From positions 32,374,022-32,438,021 of the forward strand of contig OX438749.1 of the NCBI GenBank assembly GCA_949316235.1: a stretch of 64,000 nt of DNA. Direction: 5' to 3'. Of this stretch, positions 21,811-53,568 are shown in pieces. The translations under genes were made by a program, and so were the position numbers. Position 1 is the stretch's first letter, and every line of letters starts with the position of its first letter. The stretch comes from Oegoconia quadripuncta (lineage: Eukaryota; Arthropoda; Insecta; Lepidoptera; Autostichidae). Below the pieces are notes generated by a model, which did no database searches, was not told the origin of the DNA, and saw only the letters and a program-made list of their open reading frames with translations.

Positions 21811-21970
21811 CATTAGTATGTTTATCGGTGTCATTGGAAACTATCCAATTTAACAACTTGGAAGGTAACACACCGTCATTAGTTTCCTCCGTGATCCCTT
21901 GAATAATTTCCATATTGTTATCCGTGGCATTAGCTTCATTGGACTTCTCTCTAATGTCAAACTCATCGAG
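21811..21970 (-). CDS. cassette exon B7
   Basis: 160 bp (3n+1), acceptor TTGTTTTAG, donor GTATGT after AATG. Translation begins LDEFDIREKSNEANATDNN and ends IVSNDTDKHTN plus one base. It is the 3'-most B exon. Its phase-1 donor fits both A exons and the giant exon acceptor at 15007, where G plus AT would make Asp. Acidic, no known domain. Confidence 0.55.
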
Positions 21971-22073
21971 CTAAAACAATACTTTAATTAATATAAGGGC
22001 AGAATTTCCCCAATTTAGACTTAGCAAGGTTAGCACATCTTTTGTGGTATACAGCATATTTACAATAAAATAC

Positions 22074-22502
22074 CAGGGGACCAATCGCGCTATTTTACAA
22101 CGTTTTTACCGTTCGAACGGAACGTTTTTGGTTTTGGTTTAGTTTTAGTTTAGCTGGTGTAAAAAATGATATCGCGCTTTTTATTGTGAACGATTATATC
22201 GTTGATGCGACCAAAGTAAAACCAAACCCAAAATGTTTAGAGCTAACCACGAGTATTAAAAAAAAGCAAAGTTAAATTATCAAGTCAAGAGTACCCTAAA
22301 CTGACGAGCATGTATGAACAACCTTAAGAGAGTGAAGGAAGCAGAAGAGGTGTGTCAGGATCGTAGCAAGTGGAAGTCTGTGGTCTCTGCGTACCTCTAC
22401 GGGAAACAGGCGTGACATTATGTATGTTTAAAAAAAAACAGTTTAATTTCCGTTAAAATTATTAGGGCGATTATCTTCAAACTTAGCGCGATTGGCCCCC
22501 AG
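22074..22502. mobile_element. MITE with nested LINE tail
   Basis: Inverted ends CAGGGGACCAATCGCGCTA and the complement of TAGCGCGATTGGCCCCCAG. Inside, 22320-22430 reads as an RTE-type ORF2 tail on the plus strand (EEVCQDRSKWKSVVSAYLYG, then stop). It lies in the intron between A7 and B7. Confidence 0.65.
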
Positions 22503-22801
22503 AACATGTCATACATGTTACTAATGTGTTAGCTGAATTCTTGTAATAACATTGTAGAGATGAAAAAAAATAAAAGATATTCTGTTGTTACGGAATTTCT
22601 TGTTGCTTATTCTCCCTAACCATAACACCTTGCGAAGCGATGTAGTTTTAAAAATAGCATATTCAGTTCAATAAGTGATATTTTTGTACCTTATATTGAA
22701 TAAAATATATTTGACTTTTTCTACTGGACTTTACCAAATACGTAAAATACGTTTGCATTTCCATTAATTTCCTCAGAGATGAGTATTCCAAATTGACTTA
22801 C

Positions 22802-23001
22802 AAGTCCTTCAAAAACATCTTCAGTAAGAGAATTTTCAGTATTATTTTGAAGTCTCGTCACCGCCGCCGCCGTTGGAACACTATTAATGACTGTGGAGTT
22901 CTCGTAATTTAATTCTTCTCTAGACTTCCGCGTGTCTTTTTCACTGGTTATATTCCTATGAAAAATAGAAGCATCCGGGTCTGAGGCTTGAGTTTTAATT
23001 G
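22802..23001 (-). CDS. cassette exon A7
   Basis: 200 bp (3n+2), acceptor TTTGCCTACAG, donor GTAAGTC after GGACTT. Codes KTQASDPDASIFHRNITSE, SREELNYENSTVINSVPT, then LQNNTENSLTEDVFEGL. It has a codon-neutral (GCG)n insertion giving AAA after VPT. The longer open frame that continues past the donor to a stop (22721) is conserved only because the intron was copied with the exon. Confidence 0.6.
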
Positions 23002-23578
23002 CTGTAGGCAAATAATACATGTTTCGTCATTAAAATGCAGGGTAGCAGATTAAAAAGTATAAGCAATTTACATTTTTTCCATATAATTCTAAAACACATA
23101 AAAACTTGAGGCGTTATAAAAACGTTTTGTACAATAACGCCTCAAGCTTTTATGTGTTTTAGAATTATGTGGGAAACTTGTATATTGCTTATTCCTTCTA
23201 ATATGCTACACTCACCTAAAATAATCAAAAATAATCGCGTGAAGGATTTACTTTCAAAAGTGGCGCCGACTTTGAAAGATATTTTTTCATATAATAGAAA
23301 TAATAATAAACAGTGAACATAGAATATTGATTGAGACATACAACTGTTCCAATAAAATTATTTTTTACTTGGTTAGTGGCTGATTCAGTGAAGTAGATTC
23401 ATTTTTGTTAAGAAGTATTTTAGTTAGGTACCTATATAAGCTTGCTTTAATTTTTTTTCCTTTTCAGTTTTATCTGTTTAATTTTGTACTGGTTATTGTT
23501 AAATAATTTTGTATTATTCATCATGTCTCATAATTTATATTGTTAAATAATGAAAGTTAAGTTCAAAATTAAACACAC

Positions 23579-23729
23579 CATTGGTATGCTTATCGGTGTC
23601 ATTGGAAAACTTCAATTTTAAAAACTGGTAAATTAACATATAGTCGTCAGTTTCTTCCGTGATCGTCTCCATATTATTATCGGCTGCATTAGCTTCTATG
23701 GACTTCTCTCTAATGTCAAACCCATCATG
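23579..23729 (-). CDS. cassette exon B6
   Basis: 151 bp (3n+1). Acceptor GTTGTTTCAG, donor GTGTGT after AATG. Codes HDGFDIREKSIEANAADNN ... FSNDTDKHTN. Three codons shorter than B7 (the IIQG region is missing), frame kept. Confidence 0.6.
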
Positions 23730-23809
23730 CTGAAACAACACCTTAATTAATATAAGGGCAATAGATAAACGTTTATTCGTTTCTCCAGCCACACACATAC
23801 ATTTAATAA

Positions 23810-24190
23810 TATTTATAAGTAATTAATACAAAAGTAGTACACATAATTTAGACTACAGTACAGTAATAAAAACCAGATCAAGGTAGCTTAACCTTAGTAT
23901 GTACTAAGTCGGCACTTTTGCTGAGGAAGCACGCAAGTTTAAATATGTAGACAGCATTTTACAAAACATGGCAATAAAAACAGAATATATAAATGTACAA
24001 ACAAAACATAGGCATAAAAAGTATGTGTGTGCTGCAGTGGTACAAATGGGCCATAGCTCAGTGTCGGATTGCTCAAGAGCAAATCACTGATTTTCAGCTA
24101 TTACCCTTAAAGAGGGAGACGGAGTACAATATTCCTAAGTAACCCTAAGTACAAATTAACATTAATGTTATATTAGTAGTAAGTTTCAGG
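23810..24190. repeat. intronic insertion between A6 and B6
   Basis: Sequence absent from the other cassette copies. It contains CAGTGTCGGATTGCTCAAGAG and CTTAAAGAGGGAGACGGAG, reminiscent of the retroelement tails at 7795 and 38205. Family uncertain. Confidence 0.4.
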
Positions 24191-24656
24191 TTATAGCCCT
24201 TTAGCCAGGTGGGCGGCTGACTTAAGAGGGTTCTGATTTATTTCTTATGTAAAATGTAAGAGTAAATTAAACTACAAGCTTAGCATGAGTTCACAATCAT
24301 GTTGAGTCGGCGCTGATGGTATTGTGCTGAATGGCGAATATGTAAATGAATAAAAAAAAATATTAACATTTCAAGTACACCAAAACAACTACGCAACGCC
24401 TGCAATAAGTGACGGCGCATATATAGATATAGTCGCTCGCGCGACACCTGGCTGAAAGAGGCAGTCTCCCAATTAGTAATAAATAGACCATTTTGTTAAA
24501 CGATGCAACGATTAAGGGTAGCAACCCTTAATCATTACATTGTTTACAGTTAGGTCAGTTTAACTTGCTTTGCTACTGGACTTAACTAAATACGTAAAAT
24601 ACGTTTGCATTTACATTGATATCCTCAGAGACATGGAGTATTCCAGAATTACTTAC

Positions 24657-24850
24657 ATATTCTTGAATTACATCTTCAGTTAGAGAACTTTCACTATAAT
24701 TTTGAAGACTCGTCACCTCCGTTGGAACATTATCTATTGCTGTGGAGTTCTGGTGATTTAAGTCTTCTTTAGACTTCTGCACATCATTTTCAGTCGTTAT
24801 ATTCCTACAATCGTTAGAAGTTTTCGTGTCGGAGGCTTGAGTTTTAATTT
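24657..24850 (-). CDS. cassette exon A6
   Basis: 194 bp (3n+2). Acceptor TTTGCCTACAG, donor GTAAGT after GAATAT. Codes KTQASDTKTSNDCRNITTEN, KEDLNHQNSTAIDNVPTEV, then ESSLTEDVIQEY. All splice signals intact. Confidence 0.6.
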
Positions 24851-25039
24851 CTGTAGGCAAATAATACAAATATCGCCATTAAAATATAGTGTAGCAGATT
24901 AAAAAGTATAAACAATTTACATTTTTTCCATATAATTCTAAAATACATAAAAGCTTGAGGCGTTATAAAAATTGTTTTGTACAATTAAAAACATTACCTA
25001 CGTTATAATAACGCCTATAGCTTTTATGTATTTTAGCAT

Positions 25040-25376
25040 CCGCCGACTCCGTGGCTCAAAGTAAACAACATTGGGTTTACGAATCGGAGGTCGCGGGTTC
25101 GATCCCCAGCGGGGTACATGTTAAAGTACTCGGTTTGGTTGGTGTAGGGCATTTTAAATGTCCGTACGCTACCACCATCTTATCTAAATCTGCCGCCAAG
25201 CAGCAATGTTAATAGCATTGTTGTGTTCCGGTTATCAGAGATAAGGTAGCCAGTCTCCCAAATGTGTTGGGGTTTCCGGGTCAGTACGCTTCCGCCTTCG
25301 ACCTCATCTTCATTTAACATCAGGTGTGGTTGAGGTCAAGTACCAACCCGTCGTGCATAAAAAAAAAGAAAAAGAA
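25040..25376 (+). mobile_element. tRNA-derived SINE (family 1), best-preserved copy
   Basis: The head has an A-box-like TGGCTCAAAGTA and a perfect B box GGTTCGATCCC about 45 bp downstream, the RNA polymerase III promoter layout. Then follow the conserved body and an A-rich tail. It lies in the intron between B5 and A6 (antisense to the host gene). Confidence 0.88.
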
Positions 25377-26087
25377 ACCTACTTGACTTATCAACCACTA
25401 CAGAGTAAAAAATAATATTATTGAAATGGTCGTATGTCTCAATCAGTTATTTTCTGTGTTCACTGTCGTAATTATTGTTCTTTCTATTATAATAAAAAAA
25501 AATATCTTTCGAAGTCTGCCTATACAATTGAAAATAAATGGTTTCACATTATAATCACTGTTACCCACTGGCGACGACATCGAAATATATTATTTCATAT
25601 ACTAGAAATAATAATAATTACGACAGTGCACTTACTAATTAACTGATTGAGGGATACGAGCGTTATTATTTTTTTTCTTGAAGTGGCTGCTTCAGTTAAT
25701 TCCGCTATTTTTTATTTTTCACTTTTAAGTATTAGCTCCTTACCTATGAAATTGGCATTTTGTATGAAGAATTATAGTTTTTTTTTTGTTAAAGATTATT
25801 TTAGTTACGTATAAGCTCGGTTTAATGATTTTTTTTTAATTTAATTTCTTTTTCAGTATCATCTATTTAAATTTGTAACGGTAGTTCATTATTAACTTTT
25901 TATTATTGGTATGTGACTTTGTTTTATATTTTTATTTGTTTGTAAACGCTTTATTTTACTTCATGATACATCCATTAATAAATTAAATTTAAAATGAAGT
26001 ACAAAGGCGGATTTAACCCATAAAGGGATCTCTTCTAGTCAACCTATATTCTTAAATAATGAAGGTTAAGATCAAAATTAAACAAAC

Positions 26088-26244
26088 CATTGGTATGCTT
26101 ATCGGTGTCATTAGAAAATATCCATTTAAAAAACTTGGAATGAAACATATCCTCCATTTTTTCACTGTCCCCTTGTATCGTCTCCATATCATTATCTGCT
26201 GCGTTCGCTTCTTTGGACTTCTTTCTATTGTCAAAGCTATCGTG
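26088..26244 (-). CDS. cassette exon B5
   Basis: 157 bp (3n+1). Acceptor TATTGTTTCAG, donor GTTTGT (the weakest of the seven, still GT) after AATG. Codes HDSFDNRKKSKEANAADND ... FSNDTDKHTN. Confidence 0.58.
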
Positions 26245-26527
26245 CTGAAACAATACCTTGATTAATATAAGGCAAAAAAGGCTTAAATTTACCAAGTGGT
26301 TATAACCCTTCCCTTTGCTAGGACGGCTGACTTAGACGGTTCTGATTTATTTCTTCCAGCAGATGTAAAAGGAAAGAGTAAATCAAATTACAGGCTTAGC
26401 ATGATTTCACAATGATGTTGAGTCAGTTCCTATGATTTGGTGCTGAACGGCGAATATGTAAATGAATAAAAAAAAAAATTAACATTTCAACTACACGAAA
26501 ACAAATAATCCTAACTACGCAACGCCT

Positions 26528-26815
26528 TTTTTTTTAACGAGGGGAAATGCATTTACGCTTTCGACCCCGTTGTGGGGCTCCCCATTCCAAAAACAGGTGC
26601 AGTCCTACCCACTAAAACCCCCCGGTGTTCCTCCACTCGCACCAAAGCGGGGCGTGGCCACTGGTACCCCGCGGTAATCGTATCCCTCGTATCGTATGGG
26701 TATCGTAACCCTCCTACAGGCTGGAGCAGGGAGGAATCTCCTGGTCCAGCCACGTCAAGAAGGCGCGTGGGAACACCACGCGCGCCTTCTCGCGAGGTCT
26801 GCGTGTGGGCGGTGA
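26528..26815 (-). repeat. GC-rich retroelement 3' end
   Basis: Starts with a T run and reads on the minus strand as a GC-rich tail with EEHRGVLVGRT. It is inserted in the A5-B5 intron: the flanking sequence GTGACTAAGTGACGGC is shared by uninterrupted copies at 24410 and 51900. Likely the 3' end of a non-LTR element. Confidence 0.55.
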
Positions 26816-27234
26816 CTAAGTGACGGCTAAACATGACAAGTGTACCCTAGAAACATAAGGTATAGTCGCTCGTACGACACCTGGCTGAGGAAAGAGGCTG
26901 CTTGTAATAAATAGACCAATAAGTTAAAACAATGTAACGAGTATTTTTAATATATGTACTGATGATGGCATATTTCCTGATCTAATGAAACACAGTAAAG
27001 TCATACCTTTATTTAAAGCCAGTATGTTGTACCCCTCTAATTTTAGACTTTATAAATACCACCGGCACTCAGTAAATTCTTTGAAAAAATCAGTTCTCGA
27101 CTTAGGTATTTTACAACTAATGTAATATAATGAAGAATTTTCGGATTTGGATATTTTTCATCTGAGTCGTAATCAGTTCAAATCAGCAGTATTGAAAGCA
27201 CTGACATAATTGTGCACACATACACTCAACTCTA

Positions 27235-27237
<3 letters not shown>

Positions 27238-27318
<81 letters not shown>
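27238..27318. repeat. (AC)n microsatellite
   Basis: About 80 bp of pure AC dinucleotide repeat. Confidence 0.98.
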
Positions 27319-27320
<2 letters not shown>

Positions 27321-27519
27321 GCATATACTACTCTATACATTTTCTCTCTTCCTTACACCCACAAACACAACAATTTGATGTCTCAATAGTTAAGGTAACA
27401 AATTAAGCTATGTATAAACTTAATGAGATCTATTTTGGCTTCTAAATGTATAATTTATATTTTAAATTTGTAATAATGGATGTGATTTCAAATAAATCAT
27501 TAAATAAAAATAAAATAAG

Positions 27520-28530
27520 CAATTCGGTTTTACTAGGGGCCGCTCGGCAACCGAAGAATGAGAGAAAACTAAATGTGTTAAATTTGTATTGCCTAAATGT
27601 CAGGGAGGTATCTATAAATATAATGATAAAAAATGTCACTCCAGATGTCGATTCTACTGTATTTTTGAGCATTACTATGGACGCCAAATTACAATGGGGT
27701 TCTCATATCCATAAATAACGAAGAGGCTCAGCTCTGAAGCGTAGGCAGTCAAAAAAATTTGACAAATATCGGACGTAAACACTGCTAGATTAGTTGTTTT
27801 TAGCTATTTCCATAGCCTGATGTCTTACGGTGTCCATGCTGTGGGGAAATGTCGCGGATATAAATACAATCATTGTTTTACAGAAGCGAGCCGTTAGCGC
27901 AATTTTTTAAATTGACATAAAAATTATAGCATCGCATTTAAGGGAAATAGTGATAAACATATACATATTATTTGAATATAAAACTTAAAAAAGATAGATA
28001 TTAAGAGTATAACATCCTAACCTTTTCGTCACAGTACATTTTTGAAAATCTAATATGTCAAACAAAAATATAGCATCATTTAGGAAAAATAGTGATAAAC
28101 CTGAAGTCAATACAAGAAATAAAGATAAACTTGCAGGTCATGTAGGTAAGCAGACTCCGCAAAATCAGTAATTCATTCAAAGGGCTATGCATACGTTTTT
28201 TCAATGAGGTTCCCAATGATGTACAAAATCTTCCACTCAATAAACTTAAAGATTCTATAAAACATAAACTTATTAAGAAAGCATATTGGAAAATATCAGG
28301 CTATTTGGATGATAATCAACCATGGACGTAACCAGCTCGTTCGCATGTCAGGCTATTACACAATTAATAATGAAATATTATTGAACCTTTTTGTAATATA
28401 AAAACCTGTTTTAAAAAGGAGCAACCCCTCGAATTTCTTACTTGTTCTTTTCAGGGCAAAAGTATTTCAAGTGTACTATTTCAAGTGTACCCTGTGTATC
28501 TATAAAATAAAGCATTTTTGACTTTGATTT
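27520..28530 (+). pseudogene. LINE ORF2 C-terminal part and 3' UTR
   Basis: Successive broken frames: VFLSITMDAKLQWGSHIHK (about 27660-27715), a SYGVHAVGKC segment at 27820-27860, then KLIKKAYWKISGYLDDNQPW (about 28265-28325). The 3' UTR ends in TAAAGCATTTTTGACTTTGATT. It is the plus-oriented counterpart of the 3' ends at 15595 and 47225. Confidence 0.78.
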
Positions 28531-28648
28531 TGATTAAGGGTATCTCAGTTACATCAGTTTAAGATGGTTAGCTATTAGACTTAACTAAATACGTAAAACA
28601 CGTTTGCAGTTCCACATCAAAGATATGGAGTATTCCAAAATTACTTAC

Positions 28649-28850
28649 ATATCCTTGAAATATATCCTCAGTAAGAGAACTTTCATTATCACTTTGAAGG
28701 CTCGTCACCTCCGCTGGAACATGATTTATGGTTGTGGACTTCTGGTGATTTAAGTCTTCTGCAGACTTAGTCACCTCCGTTGGAACACCATTCATATCTG
28801 TGGAGTTCTGATAATTTAACCCTTTCATTCTTATTAAATGAAAAAACACC
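28649..28850 (-). pseudogene. cassette exon A5, 5'-truncated
   Basis: The 3' half is intact, with LNYQNSTDMNGVPTEVTK and SSLTEDIFQGY before the GTAAGT donor at 28648. The 5' part (KTQASDP...NIT) and the CCTACAG acceptor are absent; beyond about 28830 the sequence is unrelated. It contains an internal partial duplication (NST..NGVPTEV / STTINHVPAEV). It may be a dead exon or use an unrecognised 5' boundary. Confidence 0.55.
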
Positions 28851-30284
28851 ATAGAACTCACAAATCTTAACAATGGTTGATATAATATTTGTGACCTCAT
28901 TTACAGGTTTTCGTATGTGTCTTATAAGACGCTATATATATTCATCATTCACTATAGTGAAGATTGTTTAAATAATGTTTTATGGATAAATAAACTGAAG
29001 AAAAAATATTAGAATAGAATAGAATAGAATAGAATACATTTATTCGTCGACCATGACACAAGTCACTTAACCTACATTATACACATACAATATGGGTTGG
29101 TATACAGTTAAAAGTAATATCGGAGACGTGACCCATATCAGGGGCAACGAAATGGTCCAGACTCAGCATGTGCTGTGGGTAGACACCCGCAGCGCTGTTC
29201 ATTCTGCCAGAACCATTGAGATACTCGTATTAAACAAATATTGTCCGTTATGGCATTATTATCTAAAATATATGTTAAGTAAGTACTTAAATAAATGATT
29301 GTTCATTTATTTATACAAAGTTTATACAAAAAGCTAAATTTTTCTATATCTCTGATGCAATTTATTGGATAATTAACTTCAACACTGTTCTAGGGCTAGT
29401 TTTGGAGATAGAGTTTAAGTAACATATATTTTAGATAACGCGATAAGGAAAAGATTTGTTTAAACATTATACCAACCATTGGGTTACATTGATAATATTG
29501 TAACAGTTTATTGGATAATTAAATTCGAAGAAAAATGAAGAAAAGAAAAAGTAGTTTTAAGTAGGCTTTCAGGAAAAACATAATTATTATATAACATTAT
29601 TATTATATTATTATTATTTATTATTAATACATAACATGCAAGAAAACTGATTTTGAGGTCTCTGAAAGTGTAGTTGTGTGTGAATGCATGTGAGTGCATC
29701 GTTTTGTATATGTGATGGCGGGCTGTAATTCATATATACGTCATACCTGAGTGATATGCATGGCTGATAAAAATAGGTTAAATCATGAAAAAAGGTTATT
29801 ACAAAATTAGTGACTACCTGAATGACAAAAACGCTTGGTATACTTCGCCCAGCTACCAAAAATTATAAAATTGTATCAGTTTTATATAAATAAAAAGAAA
29901 AGAAAATGATCCTGTGGGTTTCTTGCGCCGCTTCTTTTCCCACAGATGATTTCCCTTTCCGAAGCGGTGGTAGCTCGGCCATACTGACTGACCGAAAAAT
30001 GCTTAGCCCTATTTTTATTTCCAATAGATTTAAATTGACATTCAACAAATGATATCATGTATCTTACGTTGAAATAAATGCTTGAAGTTTGAAGTTTGAT
30101 ATTGTGATCAGGTTAGCGGAAGATGACTGTATGAACTGGACAATTCGACAAATCTATTTAATAACTTGAATTAGAGTTTCTGTTTGACCACATTCTTTAC
30201 ATATATATTTATTTAGGTGATTTATTTATTTTATTAAAATTAGTTTACCGTGCACGCTACCTACATGTCATGTGCATAATGCTT
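28850..30284. other. noncoding, mostly unrecognised
   Basis: Holds a GAATA pentamer tail at 29008-29036 of a minus-oriented retroelement starting near 29040. The remainder is AT-rich with no exon-like signal that I can support. Confidence 0.45.
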
Positions 30285-30425
30285 CTTAACCCAAAGGTTG
30301 CCTGGAAGAGATCGCTTTTAGTGATAAGGCCGCCAAATTGTACTATCCCCTTTTTCTTATTTGTTTGTATGCTTCTTATTGTTGTACAATAAAGAATATT
30401 TTGTTTTGTTTGTTTGTTTGTTACT
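30285..30425 (+). repeat. retroelement 3' end with TTGTTTG tail
   Basis: CCCAAAGGTTGCCTGGAAGA and GCTTTTAGTGATAAGGCCGCC, then AATAAAGAATATTTTG with a TTTG repeat tail. Homologous to 62645-62800, which has a TTGA tail. Confidence 0.65.
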
Positions 30426-30442
30426 ATGCAACCACATCTTAA

Positions 30443-30560
30443 CCTTTGACACGTTAACTGCCGCGACTTAGTAACTTATTAGTAATCTGTGCCGCGACGC
30501 AGACACAATTGAAAATCAATTGTTTTCCGGTCACCGGTGACCGGCGTGGCGCTCAAAGGC
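30443..30560. mobile_element. short piggyBac-like MITE
   Basis: Flanked by TTAA (30439-30442 and 30561-30564). Termini are CCTTTGACACG and the complement of CGCTCAAAGGC, with a palindrome GGTCACCGGTGACC near the right end. TTAA target duplication and CCTTTG ends fit the piggyBac superfamily. Confidence 0.7.
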
Positions 30561-30629
30561 TTAAATTAAATTTCTTGTTAGCCCAGTAAGGATACTAACA
30601 AAGTAACACTTTTAATTTCCTATAATCTT

Positions 30630-31490: not shown

Positions 31491-31558
31491 TTCATTGTGT
31501 CGGAGAATATACCTAGAACTCCTGTAATTATTTAAAAAAAAAATCGATCAAGAATTTC

Positions 31559-35350: not shown

Positions 35351-35423
35351 TTTAGGTACCAATCCTGCGAATACCAGCAAGCACACATTTCGTACAATAT
35401 AAAGTGACAGCACTATACAATAT

Positions 35424-36082
35424 ATAAAAAAGGATTAAAAAAAAAACGACTTCAAAAAACCCGGAAAAAATAATTTAATTAAACTACTGCAATAATAATA
35501 ACTGAAAAGTATGAAATAATAAACCAGAGCAGAATGTTCTTTATAGATAGATATACACTATTATATATAATGAGAATACAATACAATTTATATGCTATAC
35601 AATAATAGTTAGGTATAATAATGAAATTAAAAATATATACAATAGGTACTTTTTGAAGTCGGTGCCTGCCTAGCCTATAAAATACACAATCAACAAAACA
35701 GTAAAAATACGCCCCGAATACAGAACCTCCTCCTTTTTTGAAGTCGGTTAACAAAGGAATTTTCATACAATTTAAATATTCAATTAATTAAGCTATTACT
35801 GTTTACTTTCATTAGATTGTATATTTTATAGGCTACGCAGGCACCGACTTCAAAAAGTACCTATTGTATATATTTTTAATTTCATTATTATACCTAACTA
35901 TTATTGTATAGTATATAAATTGTATTGTATTCTCATTATATATAATAGTGTACATCTATCTATAAAGAACATTCTGCTCTGGTTTATTATTTCATACTTT
36001 TCAGTTATTATTATTGCAGTAGTTTAATTAAATTATTTTTTCCGGGTTTTTTGAAGTCGTTTTTTTTTAAATCCTTTTTTAT
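35424..36082. mobile_element. 659-bp foldback element with about 268-bp arms
   Basis: Left arm 35424-35692 and right arm 35815-36082 are near-perfect inverted copies (TAAAAAAGGATT, CGACTTCAAAAAACCCGG, GAGCAGAATGTTCTTTATAG). The 120-bp spacer includes CCTCCTCCTTTTTTGAAGTC, a motif that recurs at 36490, 36733 and 37190. No transposase inside. Confidence 0.85.
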
Positions 36083-36130
36083 TTAATTCTTTTTAGTGTC
36101 TGGTCAGACATTACAAAATAATAAAATATA

Positions 36131-37351: not shown

Positions 37352-38114
37352 TAGTATAAGATCCGGCAATAGAAATATATACCCTCATCTGTTATTCGAC
37401 GATAACAAAATTAATATGTTAGTTAATGAATATATTAATACATTGAAAATGGGTTGCCTAGCTAAATCGCGGGCCAAACGGTTAATTAATGTAAATCCAA
37501 ATTAATTGTTTTTCAATTAACTTCCCCGATTTGTTATTTATAAAAATCAACTATTATCTGAAAGAACATAACATAAGGAACTGGAAAAATATAGGTTGCC
37601 TACTTTCCCTTCAGCATAACTATGGAGTTGTCATGTATAAACATGCGAGTAAGCGTTATTAACATACCCTCATCAGTTATTTAATTGATTTTTTTTTTAA
37701 ATTAAACGTTATTTTATTCTCTTTCTAACAGTATAAGGTTGCCTCAGTAAAAGTTTGTCACATGCACGGTTGCTGTGATTTTAGATGTGAAGTTTTGAGC
37801 GCAAGCGCGGAGAGTGACAGAGAGCGTTGCACGCACTTCTCCTTAGTTATACTGAAGGGAAAGTAGGCAACCTATATTTTTCCAGTTCCTTATGTTATGT
37901 TCTTTCAGATAATGGTCGATTTTTATAAATAACAAATCGGGGAAGTTAATTGAAAAACAATTAATTTGGATTTACATTAATTAACCGTTTGGCCCGCGAT
38001 TTAGCTAGGCAACCCATTTTCAATGTATTAATATATTCATTAACTAACATATTAATTTTGTTATCGTCGAATAACAGATGAGGGTATATATTTCTATTGC
38101 CGGATCTTATACTA
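37352..38114. mobile_element. 763-bp foldback element, CAA target duplication
   Basis: Arms 37352-37614 and 37852-38114 (263 bp each) are inverted copies with few mismatches, starting TAGTATAAGATCCGGC. The 3-bp target CAA is duplicated at 37349-37351 and 38115-38117. The paralogous block retains the empty site, CGTAACAAGGACAAGC, with a single CAA at 49756-49758. The 237-bp spacer has no transposase. Confidence 0.92.
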
Positions 38115-40224: not shown

Positions 40225-40378
40225 CATTCATATGTTTATCGGTCTCTTTGAAAGCAAGGGAATTTAAAAACGTAGAAATTAACGCATCGTAATCAATTTT
40301 TTCGGTGATCACTGGTATCATATCCATATCTGTTGCATTAGCTCCTTCGGAATTCTCTCTAATGTCAAACCCATTATG
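40225..40378 (-). CDS. cassette exon B4
   Basis: 154 bp (3n+1). Acceptor TATTGTTTCAG, donor GTGTGT after AATG. Codes HNGFDIRENSEGANATDMD ... ETDKHMN. The most diverged B at its centre (LISTFLNSLAF in place of LSKLFKRIVSN), frame kept. Confidence 0.58.
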
Positions 40379-41589: not shown

Positions 41590-41780
41590 ATATCCTTGAA
41601 ATAAATCTTCAGTTAGAGAATTTTCACTATTATTTTGAAGTCTCGTCACAGTCGTTGGAACATTATTTATGACTGTGGAGTTCTGGTGATTTAAGTTTTC
41701 TGTAGACTTCTGGGTGTCATTTTCACCGGTTATATTTCTATAAACGGTAGTGTCCGGTTCTGAGGCTTGAGTTTTCATTG
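41590..41780 (-). CDS. cassette exon A4
   Basis: 191 bp (3n+2). Acceptor TTACCTGCAG, donor GTAAGT after GGATAT. Codes MKTQASEPDTTVYRNITGEN, STENLNHQNSTVINNVPT, NNSENSLTEDLFQGY. It is close to the inferred consensus. The intron just 3' has a triplicated GCGCCGGTTTAACT..GGTTTGC segment (41231-41490). Confidence 0.62.
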
Positions 41781-42089
41781 CTGCAGGTAAATTATACAGG
41801 GTTAGTCATTGAAATAATTGTAGCAGACAAAGGTATAAACAATATTAATTTTTTCCACGCAATTCTAAAATAATTCAAGCTTGATTCGTTATAAGAACGT
41901 TTTGTACAATTTGTAATCATGGTGAACAGCAGAATAGCATTAATATTTCGACGATTAACTATGTAGTTTTAGTATTTTTGTTTTCTTTTTAATTTTATTT
42001 CTTTTTCAGTTTATCTGTTTAATTTTGTACTGGCAGTGTGTTGTTAAGTAACTTTTTATTATTCGTGTGTGATTTTGGTTTATTGTTAA

Positions 42090-42872: not shown

Positions 42873-43032
42873 CATTGGTATGTTTATCGGTGTCATTGGA
42901 AACTATCCGTTTTACCAGCTTGGAAAGTGGCATATCGTCATCACTTTCTTCCGTGATTCCTTGTTCCGTCTCCACATAACTACCTGCTGCATTACCTTCT
43001 TTGGACTTCTCTCTACTGCAAAACCCATCACG
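42873..43032 (-). CDS. cassette exon B3
   Basis: 160 bp (3n+1). Acceptor TATTGTTTCAG, donor GTATGT after AATG. Codes RDGFCSREKSKEGNAAGSY, GITEESDDDMPLSKLVKR, then VSNDTDKHTN. A MITE begins only 25 bp upstream of the acceptor, leaving the TTGTTTCAG intact. Confidence 0.6.
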
Positions 43033-44699: not shown

Positions 44700-44707
44700 G
44701 ATGCGAG

Positions 44708-44872: not shown

Positions 44873-44924
44873 AAGCTGGTTTGCTACTGGACTTAACTAA
44901 ATACGTAAAATACGTTTGCATATC

Positions 44925-45598
44925 CTTTAGAAATCTTTATTGTTTTTAAATGTGGTGGATACAGATCGTGCTTCTATTTGTAATATATACAATATATAGT
45001 AACCCGGCATACAATGCTACCGGCTCGGTCCACTCGTGGAGTAGTACCTTATCGTTACCGATAAAACGGCGCGCGTTCGCAGCACTAGCTTAGCTACATC
45101 CCTATTGCGAGCTTTTCGAAAAGGCGGGCTGTCACTTCGTTTTTGATCTGTCACGCAACTGTTCTAACTTTTCTTGGTAATTTGTAAAAACTGCGAAACA
45201 AATTAGGATTAAGCTGAGCTGTGTCGAAGACTCCATATTAAACGTGTTATCTAGTGAGAAACAACTTTCATTCGACGCTGGCCTACCCTAAAAATAATAA
45301 AAGTCCGTATTAAAATTGTGTCACTATTAAATTTGGAAATATTCAATTTCTACATAATAATATTATTATTGTCATACATATCACCATGTCACTTTAACTA
45401 ATTATCATTTAATTAATAAGCTCTTTAATCGAATAGAAGCATTTATGCTTCCGAGCCCAGCCTTTATACGTTGGCGGAATAATTTTTGTGGGAGTTTTTG
45501 GAATTCTTGCGGCAAGGCATTAAATGCACGTACACACATAGCAGCTGAACTTTTTAGATATAAAGTAGTTTTACACTGCGTTTCATAAACTAGTTTAT
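44925..45598 (-). repeat. retroelement insertion in the intron 3' of A3
   Basis: Separates GTAAAATACGTTTGCAT from TTTCATTAATATCC, which are contiguous in other cassettes. 45440-45598 on the minus strand reads RAFNALPQEFQKLPQKL, a LINE C-terminal tail. 44925-45440 is not recognised. Confidence 0.55.
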
Positions 45599-45882
45599 CT
45601 GGGTATCTTGTACTTCTGGAGCATACATCTCGATTTCATTAATATCCGCAGAGATATAGAGTATTCCAAAATTACTTACATATCCTTGAAATACATTTTT
45701 AGTTGTTACTACTATATCACTATTGTTTTGAAGTCTCGTGACCTCCGTTGGAGCATTGTTTATGGCTGGGGTGTTCCGGCAATTTGAGTCTACTGTAGAC
45801 TTGGACACGTCCTTTGGAACACCATTCGTATCTGTGGAGTTATGATAATTTAACACTTCTCTAAATTTAATTTTCACTGTTT

Positions 45883-46210
45883 TTTTTTATTCACGACGAG
45901 TTGGTACTTGACCTCAATCACACCTGATGTTAAGTGAAGATGAGGTCGAAGGTGGAAGCGTACTGACCCGGAAACCCCAACACATTTGGGGGACTGGCTA
46001 TCTTATCTCTGACAACCGGAACACAACAATGCTATTAACATTACTGCTTGGCGGCAGATTTAGATAAGACGGTGGTAGCTAGCCAGGCAGACATTTAAAA
46101 TGCCCTACCACCAACCAAACCGAGTACTTGAACATGTGCCCCGCTGGGGATCGAACCCGCGACCTCCGAATCGTAAACCCAATGTTGTTTACATTGAGCC
46201 ACGGAGGCGG
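45883..46210 (-). mobile_element. tRNA-derived SINE (family 1), full length
   Basis: T-run tail at 45885, full body and intact B box (complement GGTTCGATCCCC at about 46145-46158). Head GCCTCCGTGGCTCAATGTAA at 46190-46209. Confidence 0.88.
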
Positions 46211-46235
46211 TCAAAAACAATATTTCGGCGGTTTT

Positions 46236-46449
46236 AAATAATAATAAATATTTCGGACACTTACACCAATCATTAAGGCCCAAACTAAGCAAAGCTTGTA
46301 CTAGCTAGATACTTATATTTAAATTAACCAATGACTCGGGAATAAATGTTCGTACTCAAAACACAAATATTTACCCTTCGCGGGATTCGAACCCGCAACC
46401 TTCTGTTTCGCTGACATGGTCACTATCCACTACACCAATCGGTCGGTCG
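46236..46449 (-). mobile_element. tRNA-derived SINE (family 2)
   Basis: Minus-strand head with GATTGGTGTAGTGGATAGTG (A box) and GCGGGTTCGAATCCCGCG (B box). The body is diverged and shortened. Confidence 0.8.
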
Positions 46450-46555
46450 GTTATATTTCTTTAAACGATATAAGTTTCCGGGCTCGAATTATAATTGCTG
46501 TAGGTAAATAATACAAGTTTTATGTCTATGACAAATAGACGCGTGACATCTTTTT

Positions 46556-47055
46556 GGGTCGTTCGTCATCTCGCACGAAATATTCTCGCACGCTCGTGCG
46601 ACTTGGCACCATTAGATTTTTCCTAATATTTTTGTCGTCAACTCGCACGACCATGAAAATCTGAGGTAACTATGTACAGTCAGCTACGAAAAGCCTTTTT
46701 AAAACGTTTATGAGGGCTTTCGCAAAATACAAGTGCACACTAGCGCCACTGGTACTATAAAATCAAATCAAATATCGAAATTCTGTTCTATCCACTGCCT
46801 AGAGAATTACCGACATTGCATTGTACTAAATCTTGATAGTTTCTAATAGTACAGTTAAGTAGAAATATCAATTAAAAAAAAAACGGCGTAGAAATTTTTG
46901 TTTGCCACGTAAAAAAATGTTGGTTTTAATATTTTTTTTACCTGGCTGTACTTTGTACGTGCGTGCGAGTTGCCAACAAAAATATTAGGTAAAATCGAAT
47001 GGTGCCAAGTCGCACGATCGTGCGAGACTTTTTCGTGCGAGATGACGAACAACCC
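46556..47055. mobile_element. 500-bp MITE with about 95-bp inverted repeats
   Basis: Left end GGGTCGTTCGTCATCTCGCA; the right end is its inverse with a T for C change. Arms share GTGCGACTTGGCACCATT. TCTTTTT flanks both sides (7 bp). Located in the intron upstream of A3. Confidence 0.8.
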
Positions 47056-47224
47056 GTCTTTTTGGGGCAGCCATTCTAATACGTTAGTACCTACTAGTTT
47101 AATAGGCTCCACTGAAAACCAGAGTTGTAGTCGTTTTTCTCCTCTCGACTACAACAAATGCTGAGATGGGGACCTGATTTGATACCACTTTGCGACACCG
47201 AAAATTAGCTACAGCATAAAAAAA

Positions 47225-47515
47225 AAAAACAAAAATCAAAAAATGCTTTATTTTGTAGGTACACAGGGTACACTTAAAATAGTCAGATTTTACATTTTTT
47301 AAGCTACTGCTTGATCAAAAGCCACTTTTCCCCTGAGAAGAACAAGGAAGAAACTCGAGAGGTTGCTCTTTTTTTAAAAAAGGTTTTTATGTTACAAATT
47401 ATTAATTATTATTTTATATTATAATATTTCATTATTAATTGTGAAATAGCCTGGTTAGGCGAACGGGCTGTTCATGTCCATGAATGTTTATCATCTAAAT
47501 AATATACTTATATTG
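47225..47515 (-). repeat. LINE 3' end, third copy
   Basis: AAAATGCTTTATTTTGTAGG to GTTTATCATCTAAATAAT, matching 15595-15904. Confidence 0.75.
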
Positions 47516-47739
47516 ATGTGTCGCTAAATGGATCAAATAAAGTACCTATTCTTATTATTCTTATTCTTTATAGAGAGCCTAGCTCGTGAAGTGCGACAGT
47601 ATAGCCATTGCGATATGTTCGATAATTATTACGACCAAAAGAGAGAAGTAGGTCTTGATATATATATTTTTATGCACAACAGCTTAGCATTTATATATAC
47701 CTCAATCATCAATTTATTGACACTAAGAATTGACGGAAA

Positions 47740-48050
47740 AATGTGCACTGACGCTGGTACCAAGCGATAAACGAGCGGTTATATTGATGTGTCGATTACT
47801 TTTAACTTTATAAGTAAAAAAAAATGTTTTTTTTTTGTGTCTGGTTTCTAATTTCTTTGGACAAAATTCTAATTTAGTTAGTTCTCTACTTTTTTCGAGG
47901 CAACTCCAATTTAGCAATAAATATTTTTAAACTGCTAAAACTCCAAAACGACTACATTAAATTGTAACCAATTACGTACAGATGTATACTCAGTGTGCTT
48001 GTTTAGGTATGTTATTTCATTTTAAGAAATATCTAGTATAATTTCTGACG
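47740..48050. repeat. dispersed repeat
   Basis: Same family as 32195-32475. The segment 47520-47740 before it is unrecognised. Confidence 0.55.
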
Positions 48051-48446
48051 CATTGTTTTTTTTTTCCGTTTTTGTATAATCACACGAATCTTGTTTATTT
48101 TCATTATATAGGCTCATTTATTTCATTCAAAAATGTCGCGCATGCAAAAACTACAAAAAGTTTCAACTTGCTATATTTTTTTTTATAATATTATTTAAGG
48201 CCACTATAATCTCGTTGCCCGCGAAACCAACCAGAACATACCGGATAAGTTTTTCCCGTAGGGAAAAAATAGGGCATATTAGGTAAGTGAAATATGTATA
48301 GGTAGTTTTTTTTTTTTCAAAACCATCATCAAAGCACGCGGCGGTCGGAGATTGATTTGCGACTGGCGGGACTCGTAGGATTCCTATTATGCCAAATTTA
48401 TTTGAACTCATATGTTCTCCAAGTTTTCATACATATTTGTAATAGG

Positions 48447-48770
48447 TATATTGTGACACCTGTTTATTTTGAAACTTGTATGTTTTAACATTTACACATG
48501 CTGTTACTTTTTCATTTTGGCACTTGGGTTATTTTCACACTTACGTATTTGAACATCTGTAGGTACATTTTGACACCTATTTATTTTGAAACTTGTACGT
48601 TTTAACACTTGCACTTGCTGTCGCTTTTGCATTTTGGCACTTGGTTATATTTACAGTTACGTATTTAAACGTCTGTAAATTTTGACCCCTATTCATTTCG
48701 ACACTCGCACTTTATGACCATTAAACAATTCGTCCACTGGACATTTTGTCACGTTGACGACTTAGTCCCG
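48447..48770. repeat. degenerate TTTTGACACTT word array
   Basis: A string of about 14-16-bp words (TTTTGACACCT, TTTTGAAACTTG, TTTTAACACTTG, TTTTGGCACTTG). About 120 bp (48449-48569) is itself tandemly duplicated at 48571-48690. Confidence 0.7.
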
Positions 48771-48793
48771 GAATGATTTAATTTAATGATGTT

Positions 48794-49228
48794 ATAGGGC
48801 ATATTAGGTAAGTGAGATAGAAGGTATCTACGCCATAACCTAGTTTAATTATTTTTTTCGAAACTATAATTGATTAAAGCGTTATGTAATTTGATGATCG
48901 CGTTTCTAGCCTATTCCACATAATATAATCATTAAATTAAATAAATAAAGGAAATTTGGAGAAAATATGAGTGCCCAATAAATTTCGCATTTTTTTTTTT
49001 TTTAATATGAGAGGGCGGCAAACGAGCATGCGGGTCACCTGATGGAAAGCAATCACCGCCGCCCATGGACACCCGCAACACCAAAAGGGTCACAGATGCG
49101 TTGCATGATAGGAAACCTTCGAATCCCGCCAGTCGCATATCAATCTCGGGCCGGCCTGTGCGTTTTTAGAAAAAAAAAACTACCTATGCCAATAATTCCT
49201 ATATCAATTACCTATTATGCCCTATTTT
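48794..49228. mobile_element. MITE (ATAGGGCATATTAGGTAAGT family) with nested SINE
   Basis: Inverted ends ATAGGGCATATTAGGTAAGT and TTACCTATTATGCCCTAT. A minus-oriented family-3 SINE (T run 48991-49003, then GGGCGGCAAACGAGCATGCG to GTCACAGATGCGTTGC near 49108) interrupts it at GCAT. Confidence 0.75.
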
Positions 49229-49654
49229 TTTTTCTTACGGTAAAAAACGCATCTGAAGTATTCATAGACATTTACACATACCTTCACACACACCAAACAC
49301 TCAACAGGTACTTACCAACTTATAAATTAGTATATTCAGATGTAACTAACTTTTTTGTGTAACATTTAATTGTCCCTCCAAGTACCTATACTATATAAAT
49401 TATAAAATAACACAAATTATAAAATTGTCTGGCTTTTTGTACTTATATTGCTTGTTGTGAATTGTTTCTGTGTACCTTGTATTTCTGTCAGCGAATAAAG
49501 TTATTCTATTCTATGTTTTATTACTTTAGGAAAACCTTTAATTGGCTAATGTTAAGGTAAACCAATTGTAATATTTTTATTTTTATTAAGGTTTGCTAAA
49601 TAAAATAAAATAAAAAATAAAACAAAGTTTAATGCACAATAGAAAAAAAAAATA
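49229..49654. other. noncoding, retro tail only
   Basis: A plus-oriented tail ending GCGAATAAAGTTATTCTATT at about 49490-49513 is the only recognisable item. Confidence 0.45.
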
Positions 49655-51060
49655 CAAAAATTGGTAAGAGTAGACAGTACATGTTTTATTAAAAAATCAT
49701 ATAGGCAAATTAAATATAAAGAGAGAGACACATAATTATATATATATACACGTAACAAGGACAAGCTTCCGGGTGCATACACTAAGTTAACGAAAATACT
49801 AAAAGCTAACATGATATCAACTTTTCCTTTTTGGATGTATTAGTTAAGATTGTGGTCAAACGCGAATCCAGTCAATCATAAAAAAAAAGTATAATACTTT
49901 GTAGAAAAACTGTTTTGTATGCCAATTGGCAATTCACAGAGCTCTGTCTATTCTGTCTGTAGCATCACTCTATTGCATCCCACCTGTATACCGTGTAACG
50001 GATGTCCTATTTTACAATTAATGAAACAAATCAACCCATGGTAATGTCAATGAGTAGGTAATAATAATATTTTATATTAGTAATTTACCATATTTAGGCT
50101 CTGTTTCACCTACTGATAAAAATCCGGACAGTCTATCCAGAAGTTATCTCACAGATAACATACACATTTCTGTTTCACCACTGTCGGTTAGTGTCAGATG
50201 TCAACTGGCAGATAAAGTGTCATATATCATAACAGTTAGTTCAAGTGGTTGATATTTTTTTATCTGACGGATAATTGCCCACTATATGAGTGCGCCATCT
50301 CATGTTTCTGTCAATTTGGGGAAGACTTGAGAATTTGTTGTGTTTCAAAATCGTTGTTTAAAATGAGATCTTGTCTTATTTCAAAATTAGTTACTTATTC
50401 TTGTCACAGGTAAATAGTTTAGTTGGAACAACTAAATTAGAGATTCATTCTTTATTAAAATCTATTTCAATCAATTCCATACAAGAATTACATTTTTACT
50501 AAACTACGTTATTATTTCGTATTAAATTAAAATTAAATAAAAATTAAAAGCTAACTCTAAAATTAACTAAAATTATACATAATATTTTATGCATAACATA
50601 ATTAGAAAAAAATTGAGTTTACGATTCAGAGGTCGCAGGTTCGATCACCAGCGGGGTACATGTTTAAGTACTCTGTTTGGTTGGTGGTAGAGCATTTTAA
50701 ATAACCGCCTGGCTAGCTACCACCATCTTGTCTAAATCTGCCGCCAAGCAGCAATGTTAATAGCATTGTTGTGTTCCGGTTGTCAGAGATAAGATAGCCA
50801 GTCCCCCCAATGTGTTGGGGTTTCCGGGTCAGTACGCTTCCACCATCGACCTCATCTTCATTTAACATCAGGTGTGATTGAGGTCAAGTACCAACCCTTT
50901 GTTCATAAAAAAAAAACAATTCATACAAGAATTACATTTTTACTAAACTACGTTATTATTACGTATTAAATAAAAATTAAAAGCTAACCCTAAAATTAAC
51001 TAAAATTATACAGAATATGCATAACATAATTAGAAAAAAAAAGAAACATTATTTGAAATA
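49655..51060. repeat. 3' flank of cassette block 1, with SINE and 125-bp direct repeat
   Basis: Paralogous to 37255-39180. It carries the empty site of the 763-bp foldback at 49756-49758. 50472-50608 and 50926-51045 are near-identical direct repeats (TACAAGAATTACATTTTTAC ... ATGCATAACATAATTAG) flanking the SINE at 50612-50917. Confidence 0.75.
50612..50917 (+). mobile_element. tRNA-derived SINE (family 1)
   Basis: Starts inside the tRNA head (GAGTTTACGATTCAGAGGTC), B box mutated to GGTTCGATCACC, full body, A-run tail. Confidence 0.85.
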
Positions 51061-51179
51061 TCTATAGTAATAAATTAAAGCCATTTCTATTACTACTGCT
51101 GAATGTTACTATACTCTCATCAGTAAATAGTACCATCTTTAGTACCAGTAGTGATAAGTTTTATCCTACGAAATAAATA

Positions 51180-51480
51180 TATTTTTGATTTCGATTTCAT
51201 TGAGTGATTAGTGGCATATGGAAAGTCATTGATATAAATAAGGAATAACAATGGACTTAACACACTACCCTGTGGTACTCCAAAGTAGACAGTACTGGAT
51301 TCAAAAAATTATTTCAGTAATATTTGTCTAAATTGGTTGTGTAAGAATTAGAATGAGATTTAATACGTTGCCTCAAAGTAGGTAAAAAAAACCACAGAGC
51401 CCAGTCTTCGACTCTACGTATCCAGACACAGATCGCTCCATCTAGCGGGAGCCTACTTTCTTGTCCCATGTGATATTTTT
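51180..51480 (-). pseudogene. reverse-transcriptase fragment at 3' edge of block 1
   Basis: The minus strand encodes a GVPQGSVLSPLLFLIYINDF-like stretch at about 51225-51285, preceded by WIRRVEDWALWFF. Matches the block-2 and block-3 edges. Confidence 0.7.
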
Positions 51481-51597
51481 CTTTTTCAGTTTCATCTGTT
51501 TCATTTTGTACTGGTAGTTTATTGTTTAGTAACTTTTTATTATTCGTGTGTGATTTTGGTTTATGGCTAAATAATGAAGTTAAGTTCAAAATCATAC

Positions 51598-51745
51598 CAT
51601 TGATATGTTTATCGATGTTATTGGAACCTAGGGATTTTAACAATACGGAAAGTGGCACATCTTCTTCATCTTCTTCCGTGATCTCAACATCATTATATGC
51701 TGCTTTAGCTTTTTTGGGCTTCTTTCTAATGTCAAACCCCTTATG
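51598..51745 (-). CDS. cassette exon B2
   Basis: 148 bp (3n+1), the shortest B. Acceptor TATTGTTTCAG, donor GTATGA after AATG. Codes HKGFDIRKKPKKAKAAYND, EITEEDEEDVPLSVLLKS, then NNIDKHIN. More basic at the N side and more acidic centrally than its siblings. Confidence 0.6.
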
Positions 51746-52183
51746 CTGAAACAATATCTTAATTAATATAAAGGCAAAAGGCCCTTTAGCCAGGCGGACG
51801 GTTGACTTAACAGGGTTCTGATTTATTTCTTCCAGCATGTAATAGGTTTAAGTGAAACTACAGGCTTTGCAATTCTAACTGCTCACCGCTTGTTCTATAA
51901 GTGACGGCTAAACATTACTAGTGTAGTATACTACAGTAGTATACTACTGTATTCATCCCACTAATGTATACATCCCACAAACATTCGGTATAGTGGCTCG
52001 CGCGACACCTGGCTGCAGAACGAGGCAGCTTGTCTTCACATTTGTAATAAATAGACCATTTTGTTAAACAATGTAACAATTAACAGTTACGTCAATTTAA
52101 GTTGGTTGCTATTGGACTTAACTAAATACGTTTGCACTTCCATTAATATCCTGAGAAATATGGAGTATACCAAAATTACTTAC

Positions 52184-52374
52184 ATATCCTTGAAATACTA
52201 TTTTATTTTGAAGTCTCGTTACGCGCGCCGTTGGAACATTATTTATGGCTGTGGACTTCAGGTGATTTAAGTTCCTAGTAGACTTCTGCATGTTATTTGA
52301 TTTTGATTTATTTTTACTGGTTTTATTTCTATAAATGGTATAAGATTCCGGGTCTGAGGCTTGAGTTTTCAATG
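52184..52374 (-). CDS. cassette exon A2
   Basis: 191 bp (3n+2). Acceptor TTACCTACAG, donor GTAAGT after GGATAT. Codes LKTQASDPESYTIYRNKTSK, NLNHLKSTAINNVPT, VTRLQNKIVFQGY. It has a codon-sized KSKSN insertion and loses the SENSLTED segment, frame kept. Confidence 0.6.
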
Positions 52375-52992
52375 CTGTAGGTAAATAATACAGGTATAGT
52401 CATTAAAACATAGTGTAGTAGATTAAAAAGTATAAACAATTTACATTTTTTCAACATAATTCTAAAATACAGAAAGCTTGAGGTTTATAAAAACTGTTTG
52501 GTACAATTAACAGCATGTTTTTTCAACAACAATTTAATCTGCTATTAAAAGCAAATTAAAAGGTATAAACATACAAATTTTTTCTACTTAAATCCGAAAT
52601 AAATAAAAGCTTGAGGCGTTCTAAAAACGTTTCGTACAATTAACAATATTATCTACGTTATAATATGGCCTCATAATACGTTATAATAACAATAAGCTCG
52701 AGGCGTCTCTTCCTCCTGGACACGATTTGCCATGGCCAACGTGGAAATCCTCAAATCGTTTGATCAAGTTTCGAGATTGCACATTGTATAATATTGATAT
52801 TTAATGTCTATAACTTGCTCAACTGTTAAGTATTTTTAAAATAATTCGTTTTAAAAATAATTTTTAATTTAATTGCTTTTTCAGTTTCACCTATTTATTT
52901 TGTACAGGTAGTGCATTGTTAAGTAACTTTTTATTATTCGTGTGTGACTGGTTTATATTGTTAAAGAAGGTTAAGTTTAAAATTATACATAC

Positions 52993-53149
52993 CATTAGTA
53001 TGTTTATCGGTGTTATTGGAAACTATGCGTTTAAACAACTTGGAAAGGAACATATCGTCATCAATTTCCGTAAGCCATTGAATCATCTCCATATCATTAT
53101 TTGCTGCATTAGCATCTTTGCACTTCTCTCTAATGTCAAACCCATCATG
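52993..53149 (-). CDS. cassette exon B1
   Basis: 157 bp (3n+1). Acceptor TATTGTTTCAG, donor GTATGT after AATG. Codes HDGFDIREKCKDANAANND, LTEIDDDMFLSKLFKRIV, then SNNTDKHTN. Confidence 0.6.
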
Positions 53150-53371
53150 CTGAAACAATACGTCAATTAATATAAGGGCAAAAGGCTTAAATTTGCCAAT
53201 TGGTTATAGCCCTTTAGCCAGGAGGCAGCCCTGGCTGATTTAAGAGGGTTCTGAACTTCTGATATATATCTTCCAGCAGATGTAATAGGTAAGAGCAAGT
53301 AAACTTTGCATGATTTAAATCGGCGTTGATCGTTTCGTTTAGTTAGTCGTACATAATCTAAAATTACTTAC

Positions 53372-53568
53372 ATATCCTTGAAATACATCTTTAGTTGTTA
53401 CTACTATTTCACTATTGTTTTGAAGTCTCGTCACCTCCGTTGGAACACCAATCATATCTGTAGAGGTATGGTGATATAACTCTCCTCTTGACTTCTGCTT
53501 ATCATTTTCGCTGGTTATATTTCTATAATCGTTAGAAGTCTCGGGGTCTTGGGCTTGTGTTGTAATTG
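53372..53568 (-). pseudogene. cassette exon A1, acceptor AG mutated
   Basis: 197 bp (3n+2), open, coding TTQAQDPETSNDYRNITSEN, GVPTEVTRLQNNSE and DVFQGY with the GTAAGT donor. The position of the acceptor reads CCTACAC rather than CCTACAG, so the canonical AG is lost. Another AG after a pyrimidine tract (CTTTCTTTTCTTTACAG, 53591) would give the wrong phase. It is the 5'-most exon I can find; it may be dead or use a non-canonical start. Confidence 0.55.

Follow-up and report, generated by a model that had tools for sequence, protein, structure and literature searches.

A stretch of 64,000 nucleotides (nt) from the lepidopteran Oegoconia quadripuncta (C8:32374022-32438021, C8 being contig OX438749.1; hereafter the window), taken from a genome of 622.6 Mb in 45 contigs, carries on its minus strand a tandem array of two kinds of exon-like segment: A exons, which start KTQASDP, and B exons, which start HDGFDIREK. 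Delimitation by tblastn and exact boundaries places seven A and seven B segments in strict alternation (Table 1). All seven B exons have lengths of the form 3n+1 and run from phase 0 to phase 1; the five longer A exons (A1, A2, A4, A6 and A7) are of the form 3n+2 and run from phase 1 to phase 0. The acceptor of the B exons reads TTTCAG in six cases and TTTTAG in one, all seven B donors begin with GT, and all seven A donors read GTAAGT. Together A and B add up to 3n nt and are flanked by phase 1 at either end, so that duplicating or skipping a cassette leaves the frame unchanged. The locus consists of homologous tandem exons with matching splice phases, three of the seven A exons being without a normal acceptor or 5' part. 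The alternation, the seven B lengths and the splice signals (TTYAG acceptors among them) had been reported in a preliminary description of this DNA and were recovered as given. Its five complete A exons have the lengths it listed, but A1 must be counted as incomplete, having CAC in place of CAG at its acceptor. The encoded repeat of about 115 residues, which it called unrecognised, was recognised by none of the searches run; the further label of acidic fits all seven B exons and only four of the five A exons, A2 encoding 2 acidic (D/E) and 12 basic (K/R) residues. Beyond the donor, six of the seven A exons are followed by about 21-29 further open codons in frame, and A1 by about 10 (..VSNFGILHISEDINGNANVFYVF).

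Table 1. Predicted exons and intronic elements of the array gene, in window coordinates
Feature	Position	Strand	Size and remarks
A1 (KTQ type)	53372..53568	-	197 nt from homologous start; acceptor AG lost (CAC)
B1 (HDG type)	52993..53149	-	157 nt; TTTCAG / GTATGT
A2	52184..52374	-	191 nt; intact
B2	51598..51745	-	148 nt; donor GTATGA
A3	45680..46498	-	5' part with stops and insertions resembling short interspersed elements (SINEs); 3' part 45831-45680 open
B3	42873..43032	-	160 nt
A4	41590..41780	-	191 nt; intact
B4	40225..40378	-	154 nt
A5	28649..28797	-	3' part only, 149 nt from internal ACAG
B5	26088..26244	-	157 nt; donor GTTTGT
A6	24657..24850	-	194 nt; intact
B6	23579..23729	-	151 nt
A7	22802..23001	-	200 nt; intact
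B7	21811..21970	-	160 nt; acceptor TTTTAG
Eighth-B fragment	21540..21566	-	SNDTDKHIN and donor region; weak profile match, E 0.17
Giant asparagine-rich (Asn-rich) exon	10637..15007	-	4371 nt; phase 1 to 1; continues array in phase
C2H2 zinc-finger exon	6494..7359	-	phase-1 acceptor; includes stop codon
Inverted copy, 'docking'-like arm	23134..23212	-	79 nt; complementary to elements upstream of A2, A4, A6 and A7
Partial second arm copy	25008..25039	-	32 nt at 88%; upstream of A6
Element upstream of A7	23039..23117	-	86% complementary to arm
Element upstream of A6	24888..24966	-	86% complementary to arm
Element upstream of A4	41830..41892	-	77% complementary to 64 nt of arm
Element upstream of A2	52412..52483	-	81% complementary to 73 nt of arm
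Second element copy upstream of A2	52550-52620	-	76%

Downstream of B7 the array is continued in phase by a giant Asn-rich exon and then by a zinc-finger exon. The array is thus predicted to form the upstream portion of a gene for a C2H2 zinc-finger protein, a connection that the preliminary description had not seen. The giant exon has its acceptor in the phase that B7 needs, starts DSSKTQ, and ends at a phase-1 donor (AATG/GTGAGT); the last exon matches PF00096 in six stretches (E 1.3e-28). Joining A2-B2-A4-B4-A6-B6-A7-B7 to the giant and zinc-finger exons yields a single frame of 2,208 residues whose lone stop stands at its end. We consider it probable, at roughly four chances in five, that the modules all belong to one gene as exons, extending a linker ahead of the zinc fingers.

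Repeats are also found within the giant exon: a coding minisatellite of 45 bp at 13194-14412 on the minus strand, with units like NDNMNAGSITDQTQE; a larger block in two copies (11996-12295 and 12698-12997, 91%); and a further pair at 11806-12080 and 12433-12707 (97%).

Three properties of the array argue for coding sequence under frame constraint. In nucleotide alignments of the seven B and five A rows, all 11 distinct gap intervals inside exons are divisible by three, compared with 16 of the 61 found in the four flanks of 150 nt (one-sided Fisher test treating intervals as independent, p = 4.3e-6). None of the 12 tested exons contains a stop, whereas random placement of the observed differences from the consensus creates on average 5.8 stops in the B set and 4.7 in the A set, and leaves the seven B copies stop-free in 3 of 2000 simulations and the five A copies in 17 of 2000. 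Measured against the codon usage of the giant and zinc-finger exons in this gene and in the paralog described below, all 12 exons score higher than the 90th percentile of 400 non-coding windows free of stops. Sequence identity among copies is 0.77 (B) and 0.79 (A) in the exons, against 0.56-0.62 in the flanks, and it falls away close to the exon borders: from 0.80-0.94 in the 30 nt preceding the B exons to 0.27-0.42 in the 70 nt before those; from 0.60-0.94 in the first 20-30 nt after donors to 0.21-0.47 in the remaining flank columns; and, upstream of the A exons (5 copies), from 0.85-0.86 in the last 20 nt to 0.43-0.61 in the preceding 80 nt. Gaps, stop simulation and codon usage agree in supporting the earlier proposal of an exon array that arose by tandem duplication under frame constraint, with indels that are codon-sized in exons, unlike those in introns.

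A neighbouring gene, likewise absent from the preliminary description, suggests from what state the array arose. The best zinc-finger match elsewhere in the genome, among 81 places listed at E <= 1e-5 (own locus included, with 135 of 572 candidates scored), lies at C8:32351944-32352399 (38% identity in the aligned part, E 4.8e-23), and belongs to a paralog at C8:32346302-32352933 on the plus strand, tail-to-tail with the array gene and about 28 kb from it. The paralog has an Asn-rich exon of about 1.73 kb (1,731 nt, against 4,371 nt in the array gene), whose start is related to that of the giant exon (tblastn E 2.2e-8); the reverse search finds the giant exon second of 12 places (E 2.8e-5). 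It further has a single A-like exon (191 nt, phase 1 to 0, GTAAGT) and a single B-like exon (142 nt, phase 0 to 1, ending AATG/GTATAG). The order of A-like, B-like, Asn-rich and zinc-finger exons and their phases are the same in both genes, whereas the paralog differs in its one pair, hardly alike in sequence, its shorter Asn-rich exon and its opposite orientation. A scan for splice signals, lengths and phases on both strands of two regions of 164 and 60 kb that have 20 kb in common (about 204 kb unique) returned three A and six B exons in the array, one of each type in the paralog and none elsewhere, and overlooked the intact A7 and B5. Homology of the A-like and B-like exons is suggested mainly by position, length and phase, their sequences being only faintly alike. 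As the paralog has one exon of each kind, a single A-B pair is probably the ancestral state, multiplied in the array gene.

In the plus-strand stretch C8:32348823-32352933 of the paralog, the start of its Asn-rich exon resembles a C2H2 finger, YCKPC...HCRVH, the first Cys pair of which seems missing in the array gene. Open reading frames (ORFs) with C2H2 zinc fingers cluster at C8 32.21-32.38 Mb and at C9 3.45-4.17 Mb.

Only four of the seven cassettes (2, 4, 6 and 7) are intact, because A1 has no acceptor AG and A3 and A5 are damaged at the 5' side. The AG closest upstream of A1, 23 nt away, does not have the required phase; an AAG located 15 nt into A1 does, but makes a poor acceptor. An ATG in frame with A1 lies upstream at 53623, in sequence that is presumably a transposon, and A1 itself, read from this ATG, may be the first coding exon. 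The 5' part of A3 is interrupted by stops and by insertions, which we take to be SINEs. From an internal ACAG, A3 and A5 stay open for 152 and 149 nt, respectively, both of the form 3n+2 and in the right phase, and each of the two matches part of the A profile twice, indicating an internal partial duplication. The intron between B4 and A5 contains two long near-perfect inverted repeats, at 35421-36085 (271 nt, 98%) and 37352-38114 (276 nt, 99%).

Relatives were sought in the same genome, among proteins and in viral contigs. All seven matches listed for the A7 peptide and all seven for the B consensus lie in the array, at a sensitivity too low to detect copies with the divergence seen in the paralog. 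Protein searches recovered C2H2 proteins: with the zinc-finger ORF, 8 matches with C2H2 domains among 149 candidates, and with a composite of 951 residues, 17 matches, every one with C2H2 domains, among 7,515 candidates. For a composite of 563 residues, the A/B part had no match at E <= 10 among a capped set of 7,995 scored candidates, in a search that covered proteins of about 310-1,660 residues. Viral contigs compared with the A and B profiles gave 28 and 128 pattern-matching stretches, respectively, and zero relatives. An RNA gene was rejected, the locus having neither an Rfam match at gathering scores nor a tRNA. Open-access literature on exon duplication (Lepidoptera, zinc finger, symmetric exons) does not name the array among the matches listed.

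The ZAD (zf-AD) C2H2 zinc-finger genes of insects carry their C2H2 fingers behind a long linker, as the array gene does. None of the 61 places listed genome-wide for zf-AD (PF07776) lies on C8 near 32.4 Mb; the minus strand from the array to 96 kb (window numbering, continued past the window's end) likewise has no zf-AD-like frame of the form C..C(30-60)C..C. With no first exon found for the array gene, such a domain may be split or distant.

Other features lie around the array gene. Outside any recognised gene, five tandem copies spaced by 192 bp occupy 2373-3440 of the window and are 84-99% like the reference copy. The upstream neighbour on the minus strand, at window coordinates of about 84.3-92.7 kb, comprises ORFs (e.g. 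VLITGATGFMGKV) that we assume to be a fatty acyl-CoA reductase gene, and a microsatellite-like stretch of about 1 kb, at about 78555-79560, is open in three minus-strand frames (repeating LYCTV).

Several results weigh against the array being a set of coding exons that arose by multiplication of one pair, or narrow what such exons could be selected for. The ratio of nonsynonymous to synonymous substitution rates (dN/dS) is 0.79 for B (bootstrap 0.53-1.18) and 0.91 for A (0.63-1.33, the 3' parts of A3 and A5 included), both ranges including 1; over complete columns the in-frame values are 0.87 (B) and 0.94 (A), and one wrong frame of A gives 0.54, so that the dN/dS test fails to single out the coding frame. 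In copies 2, 4, 6 and 7, about 147 columns upstream of A are nearly as similar (0.796) as the exon (0.815). Three of the seven A exons are damaged, and skipping one such A alone would break the frame. The distance matrices of the B copies and of the A copies, the latter taken from their 3' parts, disagree (Mantel r = -0.28, seven copies each, with 4,120 of 5,040 permutations reaching the observed value). As to the paralog, the scan templates were chosen after its exons had been seen; shuffled sequences equal the global score of its A-like exon in 152 of 2000 cases and its profile score in 31 of 1000, and those of its B-like exon in 2 of 2000 and 16 of 1000; comparing profiles gives the B-like exon little support (E 0.058, probability 0.9%); and neither paralog exon was found when the genome was searched with the A7 peptide and with the B consensus. 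Finally, the search for a first coding exon from the array to 82 kb was negative: no ATG exon of at least 60 nt, in a frame of at least 90 nt and followed in phase 1 by any of six donor hexamers, lies at 53.6-82 kb. When the sequences upstream of the two genes were compared, with transposon-like matches removed, there were 26 matches in the sense of the array against 22, 29 and 32 in the other strand combinations, the counts being taken to the same E-value and the best match having E 0.022.

These points modify the interpretation in two respects. Because the dN/dS ranges include 1, constraint would fall on the open frame and the splice sites rather than on residues; frame and splice sites appear kept and residues nearly free, as in a disordered linker. 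Of the evolutionary checks that the preliminary description had suggested, indel periodicity supports constraint on the frame, and dN/dS, being close to 1, indicates that residues are little constrained. Structure prediction, its further suggestion, returned no confident fold, the AlphaFold2 models having a mean predicted local distance difference test score (pLDDT) of 61.8 for B and 52.3 for A; such low scores agree with a probably disordered stretch without proving it, and a confidently folded repeat domain was rejected on these models. As to history, agreement between the A and B histories was expected and did not appear in the Mantel test; since the A and B distances disagree, the history was not a clean series of pair duplications, and the copies look star-like, recombined or converted rather than serially derived.

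We propose that a two-exon module, A then B, with phase 1 at both ends, was multiplied in tandem from one pair to seven, and that each intact module could be included or skipped without a frameshift. The last module would splice in phase into the giant Asn-rich exon, and this into the C2H2 zinc-finger exon, a single mRNA joining the modules, with the damaged cassettes 1, 3 and 5 either skipped or used in shortened form. The product would be a zinc-finger factor, with fingers expected to bind DNA, whose putatively disordered linker was lengthened by cassette duplication and further, within the giant exon, by the coding minisatellite. Selection would act on the linker staying open and spliceable, not on its exact sequence.

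An intronic feature of the array may add to this. A 79-nt arm upstream of A7 lies in inverse orientation to elements that precede the four intact A exons (Table 1). Predicted duplexes of the arm with the A7, A6, A4 and A2 elements have energies of -87.4, -86.1, -60.0 and -62.5 kcal/mol (computed without a shuffled control), and local complementarity scores are, in the same order, 57, 57, 33 and 43 against background maxima of 16, 36, 36 and 18 (n = 283), A4 thus falling below its maximum and the other three exceeding theirs. Upstream of A2, A4, A6 and A7, the first 150 alignment columns are 0.73-0.90 identical, and identity then drops to 0.27-0.47. The two arms at A7 form a local hairpin of -94.6 kcal/mol, predicted for a 231-nt stretch, and the 32-nt copy before A6 means that the arm is not unique. 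In the proposal of Ivanov and Pervouchine (PMC6071210), such competing pairings arise once one arm of a stem-loop in an intron has been duplicated. The complementarity of arm and elements may be a lead for regulated skipping, and may equally be a by-product of duplication.

Of the explanations that differ from the one we prefer, two concern the array as a whole. The array might be decaying, its formerly coding copies now largely unused and the gene running from few or none of them. The three damaged A exons, a dN/dS near 1 and transposon-like sequence in A3 would fit such decay, but all seven B and four of seven A exons are intact with their splice signals, no tested exon has acquired any of the stops expected under random placement, and the downstream exons are open; we therefore regard decay as unlikely. 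That the locus comprises seven small tandem genes of two exons each, rather than one gene, could explain why every cassette is repeated with some of its flanking intron. B, however, ends in phase 1, which fits the next A or the giant exon, and the paralog has the same order and phases; no common start, stop or extra exon was noticed, although no systematic search for them was made. This explanation is barely credible, and we rejected it.

The remaining alternatives concern how many cassettes a transcript would contain. Under regulated skipping, the arm would pair with the element of A6, A4 or A2 and loop out the cassettes between, giving each transcript a discrete repeat number by a docker-selector logic. 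The match of the arm to the elements of all four intact A exons, the energies and high complementarity scores of the predicted duplexes, the conserved columns upstream of those exons and the arm-duplication route set out in passages of PMC6071210 all speak for it; yet the A4 score does not exceed its background maximum, a partial second arm copy lies before A6, the hairpin at A7 would compete, and the element, being no more conserved than the exons, may be just the edge of the duplicated block. We consider regulated skipping quite improbable, and give slightly less credence still to its use as a length-setting device, in which the arm before the last cassette would loop out zero, one or more cassettes; if that were true, the N terminus and the DNA-binding fingers encoded by one zinc-finger gene would be separated by linkers of graded length. 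Strict mutual exclusion in the manner of Dscam, with exactly one A-B cassette per transcript, would be compatible with cassettes that are homologous, multiples of three in sum and phase-symmetric, with near-neutral residue change and with the complementary elements. That the array works so is likewise quite improbable: the arm lies inside it, before the last cassette, and not outside, and the B exons that follow damaged A exons would be useless alone.

Tandem exon duplication within genes is well known (Ivanov and Pervouchine 2022, PMC9013439). As far as the portions of that paper bearing on the point go, the array resembles the cases described in having homologous, phase-compatible tandem exons with part of the flanking introns copied, and is unlike them in that its unit is an exon pair, 1-0 plus 0-1, symmetric (1-1) only when together; there are seven copies here, and they lie in a probably disordered linker. 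With the docker-selector clusters treated in passages of PMC6071210 (Dscam exon 6, 14-3-3zeta) the locus shares one arm complementary to repeated elements, here close to every intact A exon, unlike them having that arm inside the array before the last cassette, where pairing would skip exons and not choose among them. A two-exon module present seven times in a zinc-finger gene, next to a gene that seems to have one pair, is a good new case and not a new kind. Should the arm regulate cassette inclusion, the locus would offer a compact model for the control of repeat number by RNA structure. One locus shows the growth of a probable disordered linker through duplication of a phase-symmetric two-exon module, and the neighbouring sister gene, apparently with one pair, serves as a natural control; the combination of kept frame and splice sites with drifting residues separates selection on the length and openness of such a linker from selection on its sequence.

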